Assembly: GCA_903828535.1 (NCBI GenBank)
Contig: CAIKMN010000031.1
Location: 1 to 64,000, forward strand
Reading direction: 5' to 3'
Source: an uncultured Curvibacter sp.
GTDB taxonomy: Bacteria > Pseudomonadota > Gammaproteobacteria > Burkholderiales > Burkholderiaceae_C
Length of the DNA stretch: 64,000 nt
Of the stretch, positions 2 through 5,808 are shown one piece after another. The position numbers and the translations under genes were made by a program. The notes under the pieces are model-generated. The model ran no database searches. It was not told the origin of the DNA and was given only the letters and a program-made list of their open reading frames with translations. Every line of letters begins with the position of its first letter. Positions within the stretch are counted from its first letter, which is position 1.

Positions 2-1027
2 CCTGCCCCGCTGCTCCCCTTGTTTGAGTTCCAGCCGGGCCAGTTCTTGACCCTTCGAGCACAGATTCAAGGACATGAATTGCGGCGCAATTACTCTATT
101 TGCAGCACCCCCAAAACCCTGCATGAAAAACATCAAATAGAGATCGGTATCCGCGCTGTTCCGGGCGGTCAATTCTCCAACTGGGCGGTCGAAAACTTAA
201 AGGCAGGTGATGTGTTGGACGTGATGCCACCGGAGGGCCGATTCGTCTCTAAAAAACCGCACGCCTTGCACCGCGTTGGCTTTGCGGCAGGCTCCGGCAT
301 CACGCCCATTTTGTCCATCATGCAGCACAGCCTGGAAACACAGCCCAAGGCTAAATTCAGCTTGGTGTATGGCAACCGCAACATGGCCAGCGTTATGTTC
401 AACGAGACTTTGCAAGACTTGAAAGACCGCTACGCAGACCGCGTCACTTTGTTGCACATCCTGTCCAAACAAGAGCAACCCGCGGACCTCCTCGAAGGCC
501 GCATTGACGCTGAAAAAGTCCGCACCTTATTAAACACCTTGTTGCCTGTGGGCAGCTTGGCCGAGGTATTTGTCTGTGGCCCTGAAGGCATGATCGACGC
601 GACCGAACAAACCCTCTTGGCCGCGGGCGTGTCCGCTGACCGAGTGCACAGCGAGCGTTTTGGCAGCGCCCCTTCCCTGACTTCGGGCGCGTCGGGTTCG
701 GCTCAAGAGACGACGCCAGCGCAAAACGCGCAAAACCCAAACGGAGGCAATGTGGCCTTGACTTTGGTGATCGATGGTCAAACACACGCCCTCAGCATGG
801 CCCCAGATCAACGTGTCTTGGAGGTGGCCTTGGCCGCCGGCCTCGATGTGCCTTACTCCTGCAAAGGCGGGGTTTGCTGCACCTGCCGTGCCAAGGTCAT
901 GCATGGCAGCGTCCTTATGGATAAAAATTTCACCTTGGAAAACTGGGAAACCGAACAGGGTTTCGTTCTCTCCTGTCAGGCACGCCCCACCAGCGAGCGC
1001 GTGACCCTGAGCTACGACGAGCGTTGA
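2..1027 (+). CDS. paaE: PaaE-type ferredoxin reductase (5' end cut by window edge)
   Basis: Oxidoreductase of the phenylacetyl-CoA epoxidase reductase (PaaE) type, which passes electrons from NAD(P)H through FAD and a [2Fe-2S] centre to the PaaABC oxygenase. The reading frame is open to base 2 and the first visible residues already lie inside the FAD domain, so roughly 25-30 N-terminal residues are missing. Visible parts in order are a flavin-binding RRNYSICS motif, the NAD-binding GSGITPIL motif, and a C-terminal plant-type ferredoxin domain with cysteines in SCKGGVCCTC and LSCQ. The linker before the ferredoxin domain (about nt 680-750) is Ala/Gln/Asn rich. The domain order FAD-NAD-Fd matches PaaE; a related hydroxylase reductase is possible because paaABCD lie outside the window. 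Confidence 0.85.
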   Translation, partial: PAPLLPLFEFQPGQFLTLRAQIQGHELRRNYSICSTPKTLHEKHQIEIGIRAVPGGQFSNWAVENLKAGDVLDVMPPEGRFVSKKPHALHRVGFAAGSGITPILSIMQHSLETQPKAKFSLVYGNRNMASVMFNETLQDLKDRYADRVTLLHILSKQEQPADLLEGRIDAEKVRTLLNTLLPVGSLAEVFVCGPEGMIDATEQTLLAAGVSADRVHSERFGSAPSLTSGASGSAQETTPAQNAQNPNGGNVALTLVIDGQTHALSMAPDQRVLEVALAAGLDVPYSCKGGVCCTCRAKVMHGSVLMDKNFTLENWETEQGFVLSCQARPTSERVTLSYDER

Positions 1028-1146
1028 AGAGGGTTTGGAGCTTAGCGCCAGATTCATTTTGGGTGTGACACCCTAAACGCACGACCCAAGGTGAGAGGTG
1101 AGGGATATGTGGGCTAGCATGGATTTCCACCTCCTGCGGCCCTTAT

Positions 1147-2028
1147 ATGCACCACCATGAATTCCCCGCTCTGTTCGAGCTTCAAGAAGCTGACTTCGAA
1201 CGAATTGCCCAGTTTGGCCGCGTCATGGGCCCGCACATTGACGAGGTGATCGAACCGCTTTATGACTTTTTAAAAATCGCCCTGGGGCAAGATTTCAACC
1301 TGAATTTCCCTGACGAGAAAGCCTTGAAGCGGGCCAAATCCTTGTCCCGGCATGCCTGGTTGGAGTTTTTAAACGGCCGTTGGGATGATGACTACATCAA
1401 AAGTCGGGTCCGCATTGGCGAGGTGCACGCACAACTTCAAATCGAGCCCCGACATTACATGGCGGCAATGGACAAGGTCAGCGACCTGCTCGCCGCGTTC
1501 GTCGACCAGCTGGTTGAGCCTGCCAAAGCGCGAGCCACTCAAGAAGCCTTGCGTCGCTTGGCCCGCATGGAGTCGGCCTTTGTGGTGGACATTTACGCCA
1601 GTCGAACCACCGACATCATCACCAAACAAAGCCGTGCCTTGACGGACATGAGCACGCCAATCACCGCCTTGTGGGATGGCATCTTGATGCTGCCGGTGGT
1701 GGGCATTGTGGACAGCCGCCGCGCACAAGACATCATGCAGCGCATGCTGGAGCAGATTTCCGAAAAGCGCGCGACCGTTTTTATTCTGGACATTTCCGGT
1801 GTGGCCGTGGTGGACACCGCCGTCGCCAACCACTTGATTCGCATGACCAAGGCCGCGCGCTTGATGGGGTCTTACACCATCGTCTCGGGCTTGTCGCCAT
1901 CTGTGGCCCAAACCATTGTGGAGTTGGGCATTGAGGTCGGCGAAATGCGCACGACTGGCAATTTGCAAGATGCTTTGCGCATTGCCTTTGACCGCATCGG
2001 CAAGGAGCATCCGATTGCGCATCGATGA
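1147..2028 (+). CDS. rsbR: RsbR-type stressosome protein: protoglobin sensor plus STAS domain
   Basis: Predicted stressosome scaffold/sensor of 293 aa. Residues 1-150 read as a globin-coupled sensor (protoglobin) domain with a candidate proximal haem ligand His94 in GEVHAQLQ. Residues 165-285 are a STAS domain close to RsbRA. Aligning by eye with B. subtilis RsbRA, the phospho-sites T171 and T205 correspond to Ser190 (GIVDS) and Thr224 (VVDT), so both positions can still be phosphorylated. No strong ribosome-binding site precedes the ATG at 1147, but no other start is available nearby. It is the first gene of a five-gene cluster whose members overlap by 2-14 nt. Gas or redox sensing is inferred from the globin fold and the retained histidine. 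Confidence 0.85.
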   Translation: MHHHEFPALFELQEADFERIAQFGRVMGPHIDEVIEPLYDFLKIALGQDFNLNFPDEKALKRAKSLSRHAWLEFLNGRWDDDYIKSRVRIGEVHAQLQIEPRHYMAAMDKVSDLLAAFVDQLVEPAKARATQEALRRLARMESAFVVDIYASRTTDIITKQSRALTDMSTPITALWDGILMLPVVGIVDSRRAQDIMQRMLEQISEKRATVFILDISGVAVVDTAVANHLIRMTKAARLMGSYTIVSGLSPSVAQTIVELGIEVGEMRTTGNLQDALRIAFDRIGKEHPIAHR

Positions 2029-2398
2029 GAGCCAAGGTGAACACCGCGTTGTCTTACAAAAGTTCAACGAGGTGCTCATCGTGCCCTTGCCTGACCCGGT
2101 GAGCGATGGTTTTTTCAAAGACCTGAACACGCGTCTGTTGGCTTTTTTGCGCCTGGATAACGTGCGCGGCATTGTGCTGGACCTCTCCAGCGTCGAGGTC
2201 ATGGACCACCATGACTTTGAACAAATCAACCGAGTTTGGCAAACAACCCACCTGATGGGCACGCCCTTGGTTTTGGCCGGTCTGAAACCCGGCGTTGCCG
2301 CCGCGTGGTCATTGCTGAATGTGACGGACCATTGGGCCACCGGTGCGCTGTCTGTGGAGCGCGCCATGGAAATCTTGGCTGGAAATAAAGCCCGATGA
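2015..2398 (+). CDS. rsbS: RsbS-type STAS protein lacking the phospho-serine
   Basis: Single STAS domain of 127 aa, the RsbS partner of the RsbR scaffold. The start is a TTG at 2015, inside the end of rsbR. It is preceded by a perfect AAGGAG at 2002-2007 with 7-nt spacing, which makes this start much better than the upstream in-frame codon at 1916. The LAGLKPGVAA segment and overall length are RsbS-like. In B. subtilis RsbS the kinase RsbT phosphorylates Ser59 in an I-D-S-F context; here the matching place reads V-M-D-H-H, so His65 replaces the serine. The protein therefore may be locked in one state or controlled differently. It overlaps rsbT by ATGA. Confidence 0.82.
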   Translation: MRIDESQGEHRVVLQKFNEVLIVPLPDPVSDGFFKDLNTRLLAFLRLDNVRGIVLDLSSVEVMDHHDFEQINRVWQTTHLMGTPLVLAGLKPGVAAAWSLLNVTDHWATGALSVERAMEILAGNKAR

Positions 2399-2790
2399 GT
2401 TCACAAAGGATGCGCATCCTGACCCCCCAAGATGCCAGTCTGGCGGTCTTGATTGTCAAAGACATCGCCCATGCAGCGGGACTGGGTGGACTCAAAATTT
2501 CGGCCCTCACCACCGCAGTGAGTGAGCTCACCACCAACGTTGTCAAATACGCTGAGACCGGTTTGTTGACCGTGCAGGTTTTGGAGCGCAAACAGCTCCG
2601 GGGCATCGAGGTCATTGTGGAAGACCGTGGCCCCGGTATTGCGAACATTCCGCTTGCGATGCAAGACCATGTTTCAACCGGAGGCACCTTGGGTTTGGGA
2701 CTGCCTGGCACCAGGCGAATGGTCGATGAGTTTGAGATTCAATCGACCTTGGGGTCGGGCACCTCGGTGAGGATTGTCAAATGGTCTTGA
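2395..2790 (+). CDS. rsbT: RsbT-type anti-sigma/STAS serine-threonine kinase
   Basis: A 131-aa GHKL ATPase-fold protein kinase of the RsbT/RsbW class. The N box is ELTTNVVKYA, the G1 box EDRGPGI and the G2 box GTLGLGLPG, all intact, so ATP binding and kinase activity are expected. In known stressosomes RsbT phosphorylates RsbR and RsbS and then leaves to activate a downstream partner. Here it lies directly after rsbS (ATGA overlap at 2395-2398) and overlaps rsbX by 10 nt, which points to translational coupling. No RsbU phosphatase, RsbV/RsbW pair or sigma-B gene is present in the window, so its released target is probably one of the two genes that follow. Confidence 0.88.
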   Translation: MSSQRMRILTPQDASLAVLIVKDIAHAAGLGGLKISALTTAVSELTTNVVKYAETGLLTVQVLERKQLRGIEVIVEDRGPGIANIPLAMQDHVSTGGTLGLGLPGTRRMVDEFEIQSTLGSGTSVRIVKWS

Positions 2791-3398
2791 GCACCGATTT
2801 GGCTTTAGAGTCCTCATTTGAAGGCCATTTTGAGCTCGACCACGGCATCTTCGTCCGCTCATACCCAGGTTCACCACGCGGGGGTGACATGGGTCTGGTA
2901 ATGCCGACGCTCAAAGGCGTTTTAGTGGCTCTGCTGGATGCATCTGGGCATGGCTTGGAGGCCTACGCTGTGGCGCAAAAGGCGCGCCAAGTATTGCTCG
3001 AGAACGCCCACCTCTCACCCGCCGATTTACTTCGAGCGATTGACCATAAGTTGCAAGGCAGTATCGGTGCGGCGGCGGCAGTCGCCAAACTGGAAGCCGA
3101 TCAACTCGCATTTTGCGGCATCGGTAATGTGAATGGCAGGTTGATCGTCGGCGCGCACCAACAGCCATTGAAAGTCAAAGTGGGGGTCTTGGGCTGGCGC
3201 ATGCGAACCCCCGAAACTCAGTGGGTTGACTTTTCCCACAACGCTTGCTTGGTCTTGCATACCGACGGGGTAACGCTGCCCGAGCGCGTGAACCGAGGCG
3301 GCGCCCAAGCGATGGCACAAGCCTTGGTTGAACAGCACGGGAGCTTCCACGACGATGCTTCGGTGCTGGTGTTGCAACGGCAAAGCAAGGTGGTTTGA
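2781..3398 (+). CDS. rsbX: RsbX-type PP2C-like serine phosphatase
   Basis: A 205-aa SpoIIE/PP2C-type phosphatase domain without other domains. Metal-binding motifs are visible as RGGDMG (about residues 33-38) and LLDASGHG (about residues 51-58), and a GIGN turn follows. The small size and position after RsbT fit RsbX, which resets the stressosome by dephosphorylating RsbR and RsbS, rather than the larger RsbU. The gene overlaps rsbT by 10 nt, and its TGA stop overlaps the ATG of the cyclase gene (TGATG at 3396-3400). Because RsbS lacks its usual serine, the likely substrate here is phospho-RsbR; that is inference. Confidence 0.82.
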   Translation: MVLSTDLALESSFEGHFELDHGIFVRSYPGSPRGGDMGLVMPTLKGVLVALLDASGHGLEAYAVAQKARQVLLENAHLSPADLLRAIDHKLQGSIGAAAAVAKLEADQLAFCGIGNVNGRLIVGAHQQPLKVKVGVLGWRMRTPETQWVDFSHNACLVLHTDGVTLPERVNRGGAQAMAQALVEQHGSFHDDASVLVLQRQSKVV

Positions 3399-4396
3399 TG
3401 TTACTCGGCACATTGCACATTGGTTCCGCAGAAGCACTCCCTTTCGCCCGCGAAAAACTGAGATCTGCACTGATTTGTGGGGGCTTCAAAGCCACGTTGG
3501 TGGGTCAATGGGTAGGGCTGCTATCGCAACTCGTGCGCGACCAAGGCCCCTGTGAATTGACCGTTTCGACCGATGACGACCAAGAAGCTGAAACGATTTT
3601 GCTCGGCCCCGTTTCTCTCACCGGACGCCTGCAACGGCTGACGTTGCCAACACCCATTGACATGGCCAGGCAACAGCAAATGCAAGCCATTTTGGCGCGC
3701 ATGAGCCGCGAAGAATTACTGCATGATTTGGAGCGCCAAGTCGAAGAACGCACCGCCGATTTGAATGCCGCACGCGATCAATCTGAAAAGTTGCTGCGAA
3801 ACATGCTGCCTAATTCGATTGCCAAAAGACTCAAGGAGGGTGAACGCATTGCCGACACGCACCAAGCCTCGGTGGTTTTTATCGACATGGTGGGCTTCAC
3901 CAAATGGGCCTCCCAACTCAGCGCGGCTGAGTTGGTGGTGCATTTGGGTCAGCTGTTTGGTGAGTTCGATGGCATCACGAAACACCATGGCTTGGAAAAA
4001 ATAAAAACCATTGGCGACTGCTACATGGCAGCTGCTGGCTTGCCCGAGCCTCAAGCCGATCACGCCGAGCGCGCCGTGCGCATGGGTTTGGAAATCATCA
4101 ACGCCATGCCGCGAATTTGTAAAGCTTTGAACGCCCCCGTTCAAGTGCGGGTCGGCATCCACACCGGGCCTTTAGTGGCGGGCGTGATAGGCTCCGTCAA
4201 GCCCTTTTATGACATTTGGGGCGACACCGTGAACATCGCTTCGCGCATGGAAAGCCACGGCGTGCCGGGCCGCTTGCATGTCTCTGATGATGTTCGCGTT
4301 GCTCTTGGCGAGGGATTCGATTTAGAACAACGCGGCGTGATCGACATTAAAAACCGGGGAGCCATGACCACCTGGTTTGTGAACAGCACCATTTAG
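3398..4396 (+). CDS. Class III adenylate cyclase, output of the stressosome module
   Basis: A 332-aa protein. Residues 1-105 are an alpha/beta region that I do not recognise with certainty; it resembles a degenerate GHKL or sensor-like domain. Residues 106-135 form a charged coiled-coil linker, and residues 155-332 are a class III cyclase domain. Metal aspartates are D163 (FIDMVGFT) and D207 (KTIGDCYM); purine-selecting residues are K203 and D272 (YDIWG), the Lys/Asp pair of adenylate rather than guanylate cyclases; N279 and R283 complete the site. All residues for an active homodimer are present. The ATG at 3398 overlaps the rsbX stop, so it is probably the output enzyme of the module (inference). 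Its stop overlaps the convergent rimO stop by 4 nt. Confidence 0.88.
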
Positions 4397-5808
4397 ACGG
4401 GCACACCCACCAAATCGTGCCCCTGCACGCCCACGATTCGGGCTTTGGTGAACTCGCCCACCTTGAGGGTCTTGCTGATTTTTTCGGGCGGTAGCAAATG
4501 CACAACACCGTCGATTTCTGGTGCATCGGCATAGGTGCGGCCAACGCCGCCCTTTTTGCCTTGGCTCAAGGCCTTGTCAACCAGCACCTGCATGGTCGCA
4601 CCGACTCGGCGTTGCAAGCGCTGGATAGACACTTCTTCGGCCACCGCCATGAAACGGGCCCGGCGTTCTTCGCGAACTTCGGAGGGCAGCATACCTGGCA
4701 ACTCATTCGCGGTGGCGCCCTTCACGGGGCTATAAGCAAAACAACCGGCGCGGTCGATTTGAGCTTCGCGCACAAATCGCAGCAGGTCTTCAAACTCGGC
4801 CTCGGTCTCGCCCGGGAAACCTGCAATGAAGGTGCTGCGCACGACCAGTTCAGGACAAGCTTCACGCCACTTTTGCAAGCGCTCCAAGTTGCGCTCACCA
4901 TGGGCGGGACGCTTCATGCGGCGCAACACATCGGGGTGGCTGTGTTGAAAAGGCACGTCCAAATAGGGAAGCACCAAGCCCTGCGCCATCAGGGGCAGCC
5001 ATTCGTCCACGCTCGGGTAGGGGTAGACGTAGTGCAATCGAACCCAAGCCCCATAAGGCGCCGCCAAATCACCCAAAGCCTGAATTAATTCCTGCGAACG
5101 GGTTTTGACGGGCTTGCCGTCCCAAAAACCAGTGCGGTATTTCACATCAACGCCGTAAGCGGAGGTGTCTTGGCTGACCACCAACAATTCTTTGATGCCG
5201 CCTTCAAACAAAGCCTGTGCCTCTTTCAGCACATCCCCAATGGGGCGGGACACCAAATCGCCGCGCATAGACGGGATGATGCAAAAGGTGCAGCGGTGGT
5301 TACAGCCTTCGCTGATCTTGAGGTAAGCGTAATGTCTTGGCGTCAGCTTGATGCCGGCCACGCCAAACGAATTGATGTCGGGGGCAGGTACCAGATCCAC
5401 AAAGGGATCGTGCGGTTTGGGCAAATGCTGGTGCACCGCGTCCATGACTTCTTGTGTGGCATGAGGACCGGTCACGGCCAAGACGCTGGGGTGCATTTGG
5501 CGCACCAAATTGCCGCCGTCTTGAGCCTGCGTGGCGCCCAAACAGCCGGTCACGATGACCTTGCCGTTTTCAGCCAATGCCTCCCCAATCGTGTCCAAGC
5601 TTTCTTTGACAGCGTCGTCAATGAAGCCGCAGGTGTTGACAATCACCAAGTCAGCGCCGGCGAAGGTTTTGGAGGTTTGGTATCCCTCCGCACTCAGTTG
5701 CGTGAGAATCAATTCGGAATCGGTCAGCGCTTTGGGGCAACCCAAGCTGACAAAACCGACTTTGGGTGACTGTTGAGAATCAGGGGAAATGGAGATGACT
5801 TGGCTCAT
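4393..5808 (-). CDS. rimO: Ribosomal protein S12 methylthiotransferase RimO
   Basis: Radical-SAM enzyme that beta-methylthiolates an aspartate of ribosomal protein S12. The 471-aa product has the N-terminal methylthiotransferase domain with auxiliary-cluster cysteines C24, C60 and C89. The radical-SAM CxxxCxxC is C169-C173-C176 in CNHRCTFC, and a C-terminal TRAM domain follows. The NTCGFID segment and the P-Y-x-x-V-P-F-Q-H core separate it from the tRNA enzyme MiaB. It stands alone on the minus strand. Its TAA and the TAG of the convergent cyclase gene share the bases TTAG at 4393-4396, so there is no room for a terminator between them. Confidence 0.96.

Follow-up and report, generated by a model that had tools for sequence, protein, structure and literature searches.

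A Vibrio-type stressosome operon with a predicted adenylate cyclase output and a putative RsbT-like adaptor in an uncultured Curvibacter

A 64,000-nt stretch of DNA from an uncultured Curvibacter sp. (assembly GCA_903828535.1, contig CAIKMN010000031.1, positions 1 to 64,000; hereafter the window) carries five overlapping genes on the same strand at positions 1147–4396. They encode an RsbR with a globin domain, RsbS, RsbT, RsbX, and a class III cyclase (Table 1), and consecutive genes overlap by 14, 4, 10, and 1 nt. The cyclase gene starts with ATG; rsbS starts with TTG, and because the 14-nt rsbR/rsbS overlap depends on that start, it is the least certain of the four. A sequence-only reading of this DNA had described the five genes and their overlaps. 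We confirmed the overlaps, and we confirmed the genes from their open reading frames (ORFs) and Pfam matches: Protoglobin (E 2.7e-23) and STAS (2.4e-12) in RsbR, STAS (4.6e-8) in RsbS, HATPase_c_2 (1.6e-12) in RsbT, SpoIIE (1e-10) in RsbX, and Guanylate_cyc (PF00211; 3.5e-57) in the cyclase. All five genes are under purifying selection (NG86 ratio of nonsynonymous to synonymous substitution rates [dN/dS] 0.066–0.18 between the window and two sister species). We think it likely, with a probability of about 0.7, that they form a stressosome operon of the Vibrio type (globin-RsbR, then RsbS, RsbT, and RsbX; RSTX) whose dedicated output would be a class III adenylate cyclase, coupled to the stressosome through an RsbT-like adaptor.

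Table 1. Features of the stressosome–cyclase locus, in window positions
Feature	Position	Strand	Description
rsbR	1147..2028	+	protoglobin sensor (His94, Tyr39) and STAS domain; Thr170, Thr224
rsbS	2015..2398	+	STAS protein; His where the phospho-acceptor Ser is usual (DHHDF)
rsbT	2395..2790	+	GHKL switch kinase; N-box, G1, and G2 intact; Val for helix-1 Arg
rsbX	2781..3398	+	PP2C/SpoIIE-type phosphatase; motifs GGD, DASGHG, HDDAS
Cyclase, whole gene	3398..4396	+	class III cyclase
Cyclase N-terminal adaptor, residues 1–88	3398..3661	+	putative RsbT-like GHKL domain, degenerate; N, G1, and G2 boxes not seen
Cyclase helical linker, residues ~89–151	3662..3850	+	shared 10-residue motif and helix preceding the catalytic domain
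Class III adenylate cyclase catalytic domain	3851..4396	+	Asp163, Lys203, Asp207, Asp272, Asn279, Arg283
Possible operator	1061..1080	+	inverted repeat GGGTGT-g-ACACCC, then TAAACGC, 5' of rsbR

The operon contains the parts of a stressosome module: a sensor-plus-STAS RsbR, a STAS RsbS, a GHKL RsbT, and a PP2C-type RsbX. The STAS domain of RsbR has Thr170 (in MSTP) and Thr224 (in VVDT), which we take, from the positions given in the B. subtilis literature, to be the two usual phospho-acceptors. RsbT, the sole RsbT match in the window genome, has an N-box (SELTTN, from residue 43), a G1 box (DRGPGI, from 77), and a G2 box (GLGLPG, from 100). Residues 6–285 of RsbR match Vibrio vulnificus RsbR (VvRsbR; E 7.6e-68). 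Its Protoglobin domain has the proximal His and distal Tyr of globin-coupled O2 sensors (His94 and Tyr39), each aligned with the same amino acid in the haem-globin protein of V. vulnificus. RsbR is thus a predicted haem O2 sensor. VvRsbR binds haem (PMC9237108). V. brasiliensis RsbR senses O2 through haem, and depletion of O2 activates its stressosome (PMC4976288). RsbS of the window has no phospho-acceptor Ser. The B. subtilis RsbS phospho-site is likewise not conserved in V. brasiliensis, which is described as having a functional stressosome (PMC4976288), so the absence of this Ser, a Bacillus-type feature, points to the Vibrio type and does not argue against a stressosome. The RsbS of one sister species (L004:2630-2983) is about nine residues shorter after KPGVA than those of the other four loci with the five-gene order.

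The catalytic domain of the cyclase has two metal-binding Asp residues, an Asn/Arg pair, and an adenine-type Lys/Asp pair, the combination characteristic of class III adenylate cyclases. Each of the six catalytic residues is present, and all are invariant in five aligned homologues, including the Lys203/Asp272 pair that had been singled out earlier, and these residues predict that the product is cyclic AMP (cAMP). When compared with the two sister species, the catalytic domain has a dN/dS of 0.04–0.09 and the N-terminal domain one of 0.07–0.10. The window genome has five matches to cyclic nucleotide-binding domains in four proteins, one of which has two such domains and adjoins a weak PDEase_I-like protein (24.1 bits, cut-off 24.8). 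It also has two further class III cyclases. On contig 10 of this genome (L003), another class III cyclase gene adjoins one whose product has, by eye, a SpoIIE-like phosphatase region, and on contig 29 (L001) a REC-type cyclase adjoins a protein with repeated CheW-like regions (both by eye).

The N-terminal region of the cyclase consists of an adaptor of about 88 residues followed by a coiled coil. Modelled alone, the adaptor is confidently predicted to adopt a beta-alpha-alpha-beta-beta-beta arrangement plus helices (predicted local distance difference test score [pLDDT] 87). In a VIA-align comparison of this model with 969 PDB chains, RsbW came first (Z 8.1 over 79 residues at 2.2 A, and Z 7.9) and SpoIIAB was the third entry (Z 6.9), followed by an entry at Z 4.2; by the tool's own note, a Z of 8 is borderline. 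N, G1, and G2 boxes were not seen in cyclase residues 1–88, so the adaptor is not expected to bind ATP, and we have not filed it as a kinase. RsbU_N (PF08673) had no match in the cyclase or elsewhere in the window genome; of 14 controls, the B. subtilis genome alone gave a match. The sequence-only reading had reported neither RsbU nor sigma-B at this locus; for RsbU this extends, at the level of RsbU_N, to the genome, and no genome-wide search was made for SigB, RsbV, or RsbW.

We found the same adaptor at the start of other stressosome outputs. An hhalign comparison of the five cyclase N-termini with those of ten outputs carrying a HisKA motif gave P 97.6 and E 2.6e-12 over 117 of 119 columns. 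Because the linker is generic (LERxVEERT) and such coils are common, we also compared the N-domain without it. E was 1.5e-6 for the N-domain alone and 2.5e-9 for the linker alone, which carries the SREELL motif, compared with 0.53 for a reversed control and 0.047 for the best of 50 column shuffles. By these profile alignments, the cyclase adaptor is homologous to the N-terminus of the HisKA outputs. A profile of 16 output N-domains, which contained no RsbT, gave 23 single-domain RsbT ORFs a median of 9.7 bits and 1515 other ORFs a median of −0.7 (19 ORFs were left out, these being the training outputs and near copies in L151 and L158). Among the best 25 remaining ORFs, 22 were RsbT-like by phmmer and two more were outputs with HATPase_c_2. 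Sequence profiles and the structure model together place the N-terminal domain of the cyclase in an adaptor family that is found on stressosome outputs and is related to RsbT.

The distribution of the N-domain follows that of stressosome genes. We searched 399 genomes of the family with an N-domain profile of 13 rows, scoring at most 12 candidates per genome, and found 30 places in 23 genomes, all of which lie within stressosome loci. An RsbT match is present at 29 of them; the remaining one (L155/L219) has RsbR and RsbS only. Twelve of the places are strong (E 2.8e-10 or better), comprising the window and 11 previously fetched loci, the latter all with HisKA outputs. The other 18 are weak, and every one of their loci has an RsbT match. 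A search of 385 alphaproteobacteria gave ten places, seven of them in loci with RsbR, RsbS, and RsbT (RST loci) or in an RsbT (two of these being query rows); the other three, at E 3e-4 to 9e-4, look like chance.

Different outputs occupy the slot that the cyclase fills in the window. An RsbS search of the 399 family genomes gave a match in 50, and we fetched 12 loci from 12 of these, 11 of them picked for two STAS matches side by side. The next protein carries a HisKA motif in 11 of the 12 (L154 was not judged), and no ORF in the 12 loci matches the cyclase. Among the 385 alphaproteobacteria, 13 genomes have an RsbR match at E 1e-30; 12 were fetched, and the thirteenth is Labrenzia (Roseibium) alba. 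In Vibrio sp. THAF191d, RSTX is followed by a PAS-HisKA-REC-Hpt hybrid kinase that starts with the adaptor and then by a REC-HD protein. Other RST loci (L141–L144, L146, and L147) have outputs with HATPase_c_2 near the N-terminus (a second stretch in L139 is unplaced), and the L140 output has RsbU_N. Judged by sequence, outputs thus range from those with RsbU_N, through those with RsbT-like domains, to those with a degenerate adaptor that has no N, G1, or G2 box. The L155/L219 operon (L219:3593-6958) has neither RsbT nor RsbX and holds RsbR, RsbS, and an adaptor-HisKA protein between unrelated genes (by eye), a natural minimal variant.

Several of these operons are also rearranged. RsbT and RsbX lie in one open frame, an apparent fusion, in L149, L153, and L156–L160; the order in L137 is R-T-X-S-HisKA, with RsbS moved behind RsbX; and in L151 (about 2456-4447) an in-frame stop interrupts the adaptor of the HisKA output before the kinase part.

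Loci with the degenerate adaptor differ from other stressosome loci in RsbT and in RsbS. We compared 18 degenerate-adaptor loci (the window, L004–L007, L137, L149–L153, and L155–L161) with 12 loci in which the output lacks such an adaptor or was not seen (L138–L148 and L154); L162 was left out, as its output lies beyond the end of the record. Ser or Thr occupies the acceptor position of RsbS in none of the 18 adaptor loci and in all 12 of the others, and in 17 adaptor loci the third residue beyond the conserved Asp is acidic (L149 has Val). The first Arg of RsbT helix 1 is present in 0/17 adaptor loci (L155 has no RsbT), compared with 12/12 elsewhere, and all 25 RsbT-like domains listed in the 12 comparison loci keep it, including the L139 RsbT. 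The adaptor itself keeps the aligned Arg in 17/18 loci (Cys in L149). For loci that are related to one another, Fisher p values are 1.9e-8 for the RsbT Arg and 1.2e-8 for the RsbS acceptor. In a tree of RsbT sequences, in which L139 was represented by the GHKL domain read with RsbX and not by RsbT proper, L137 and L150/L152 are placed apart from the other Vibrio-type RsbTs with weak support.

We take the helix-1 Arg to be R19 of B. subtilis RsbT. R19, R23, and N24 of that protein are listed in its interface with RsbU (PMC12143880), and Arg20 of SpoIIAB is described as lying near the SpoIIAA site and contacting sigma-F (PMC10345196); we read SpoIIAB Arg20 as the equivalent of the adaptor Arg. 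We tentatively propose, at somewhat less than even odds, that the switch kinase has been split in two throughout this subtype of stressosomes. RsbT would keep catalysis without the docking Arg, and a pseudo-RsbT fused to the output (a hybrid kinase or, in the window, the cyclase) would keep the Arg without catalysis. The output would then replace RsbT as the client that the stressosome holds and releases, and the adaptor and coiled coil would be an exchangeable plug, which in the window would place cAMP under O2 control.

The five-gene unit itself is rare in the samples searched, yet intact over a large distance. We scanned for the whole cyclase with one genome per species and kept 79 loci from the best 80 of 584 stretches (525 confirmed), so there may be more relatives than these. 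The match is full length in four of the 79 (L004, L005, L006, and L007), and only these four have RsbR, RsbS, RsbT, and RsbX matches in the flanks, in the same five-gene order. L004 and L005 are Curvibacter-labelled metagenome-assembled genomes (MAGs) of two sister species in the genus of the window. L006 (a Rhizobiaceae MAG) and L007 (L. alba) are alphaproteobacteria, with 59% identity in RsbR and 52–53% in the cyclase. A search for this gene order had been proposed with the sequence-only reading, which had attributed the cyclase to the unit on the basis of the overlaps; conservation of order and overlaps between beta- and alphaproteobacteria indicates that it does belong there. A profile of the cyclase N-terminus (A1) matches 1 of 274 genomes of the class (the window genome) and 1 of 87 genomes of the L007 family (L. 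alba), both already known. Among 456 plasmid records, one covers >80% of the cyclase, from residue 38, and it has no RsbR, RsbS, RsbT, or RsbX match in the surrounding 13 kb.

We propose that in this operon, as O2 leaves the RsbR globin, RsbT would phosphorylate RsbR, and the RsbR:RsbS surface, once altered, would hold the adaptor differently; the adaptor would occupy the site on a STAS domain that RsbT or SpoIIAB would take. Freed or re-oriented adaptors could then allow the coiled coil to pair two cyclase domains, which would raise cAMP at low O2, and RsbX would reset the system. Stated more broadly, the switch could bring the cyclase domains together or move them apart through the coiled coil. 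We give about an even chance to the adaptor docking directly on the RsbR:RsbS core, and a chance well short of that to RsbT docking onto the adaptor.

The classical wiring would have released RsbT bind the N-terminus and linker of the cyclase and activate it, as it does with RsbU, here through a heterodimer of two GHKL domains, one from the adaptor and one from RsbT. SpoIIAB and other switch kinases form dimers, 17 of the 18 adaptor operons include RsbT, and the RsbT of the window is the only one matched in its genome. In B. subtilis, binding of RsbT to the N-domain and linker of RsbU makes the coiled coil rigid, and the paper that describes this also cites a Moorella diguanylate cyclase as being under RsbT control (PMC12143880). 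On the other side, the absence of RsbU_N from the window genome, an RsbT without the Arg of the presumed RsbU interface, and an RsbT-like output domain that keeps it make direct docking of the cyclase at least as likely, and the L219 operon, which has an adaptor and kinase and no RsbT, favours docking of the output on the stressosome itself. An interaction between VvRsbT and VvD1 was also not detected in the V. vulnificus study (PMC9237108). The sequence-only reading had assumed that free RsbT activates the output; the data do not specifically support this, and we regard the classical wiring as possible but somewhat improbable.

It could instead be supposed that the cyclase is merely co-transcribed, with an adaptor that responds to another signal or simply serves for dimerisation, as a constitutive cyclase would need no more than a dimerising coiled coil. 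This is improbable, because gene order and overlaps are kept across beta- and alphaproteobacteria, because every one of the family places found with the adaptor profile lies in a stressosome locus, and because the same adaptor occurs on other outputs. Slighter still is the chance that the output makes another nucleotide (for example, cyclic GMP) or is inactive, given the adenine-type Lys203/Asp272 pair, the invariance of the six catalytic residues, and the low dN/dS of the catalytic domain.

Several observations weigh against our preferred reading of a stressosome coupled to an adenylate cyclase through an RsbT-like adaptor. Foldseek alone gave no significant PDB fold match for the adaptor, the structure model of the full-length cyclase is poor (mean pLDDT 66), and direct hhalign comparisons of the adaptor with five RsbTs were weak (E 0.31 and 0.065). 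The first of these, of five cyclase N-termini with five RsbTs, was dropped as a basis, since both alignments hold only close sequences; the case for the relation is made by the structure comparison and by the profile, which was trained on diverse outputs. Eight of the 12 strong family places are query rows or their genomes, so the new ones are four strong places outside the query rows (G013, G039, G175, and G376) and the 18 weak ones. The Arg and Ser associations come from related operons, and most of the Vibrio-type RsbTs group together in the tree, so they reflect few events. At the third residue beyond the conserved Asp, V. vulnificus RsbS has Ser in place of an acidic residue, and in L006 RsbR the first of the two Thr positions is occupied by Ala. 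Finally, the genome with the L219 operon (90% complete, 330 contigs) has an RsbT in another RST locus, which could act in trans.

A PaaE-like reductase gene lies 119 nt upstream of rsbR on the same strand (TIGR02160, E 2.4e-117, under the family cut-off), and a convergent RimO-like gene (named by eye) lies downstream of the cyclase. The cassette is found between paaE and rimO in three of nine genomes of the genus (the window, L004, and L005; 2.3–2.5 Mb). In the other six (L173–L178; 4.8–6.8 Mb), rimO has an RNase R-like ORF (by eye) as its neighbour, and no match to any of the five genes occurs at the rimO site (compared with window positions 2–5808). The G+C content of the five genes (0.551–0.576) is like that of the rest of the window (0.559), and we rejected recent foreign origin of the cassette on this ground. 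The patchy distribution of the cassette (three genomes of one genus and two alphaproteobacteria) suggests an older transfer. The inverted repeat and TAAACGC upstream of rsbR are kept in L005 and partly in L004. No sigma-70 promoter was found upstream of rsbR; two pattern matches within 900–4600 are at chance level.

The order globin-RsbR, RsbS, RsbT, RsbX is that of the haem-globin RsbRSTX modules of V. vulnificus and V. brasiliensis (PMC9237108, PMC4976288). In the V. vulnificus study, eleven downstream architectures are given for globin-RSTX modules; most targets are without RsbU_N and only some have it, no RsbT-D1 interaction is reported, and class III cyclase is not among the domain names in the figure legend (PMC9237108). 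The adaptor also heads the output of Vibrio sp. THAF191d, but that output is a kinase, whereas here the adaptor and a class III cyclase are coupled directly in a single protein. A further parallel is Moorella thermoacetica MtG (Quin 2012, as cited in PMC4976288 and PMC12143880), which is likewise a stressosome-controlled second-messenger cyclase with a modelled coiled-coil linker. MtG, however, is a GGDEF protein that makes c-di-GMP and has an RsbU N-terminal domain, in place of the class III cyclase and pseudo-RsbT adaptor of the window. The B. subtilis RsbRST-RsbU-sigmaB system shares the core proteins and presumably the RsbT and RsbX chemistry; the window differs from it in having no RsbU_N, an RsbS without the acceptor Ser, and another output. 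Activation of RsbU by RsbT in B. subtilis works through the RsbU linker, which RsbT turns into a coiled coil (PMC12143880). The adaptor may share the fold of the GHKL switch kinases RsbW, SpoIIAB, and RsbT, and it has the helix-1 Arg, but unlike them it has no N, G1, or G2 box. In the literature searched, to the extent that it was available, we found no stressosome-controlled cAMP output, in line with the sequence-only reading, which knew of no characterised one; an earlier mention may exist in Pane-Farre 2005/2017 or Quin 2012. What is most likely to be new here is the pseudo-RsbT adaptor.

A pseudo-RsbT adaptor shared among outputs would be a specific answer to the question of how Gram-negative stressosomes are coupled to their outputs. 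Stressosomes have been described as an exchangeable toolkit with phosphatases, histidine kinases, a protease adaptor, and GGDEF enzymes (PMC12143880). A class III adenylate cyclase would add to the output kinds recorded in the sources available to us, namely PP2C phosphatases, histidine kinases and phosphorelays, c-di-GMP enzymes, and sigma factors, and O2 sensing by a stressosome could then directly set cAMP. If the split-kinase reading is true, these operons would also be a clear case of a signalling enzyme whose catalytic and docking roles are divided between two proteins of one operon.

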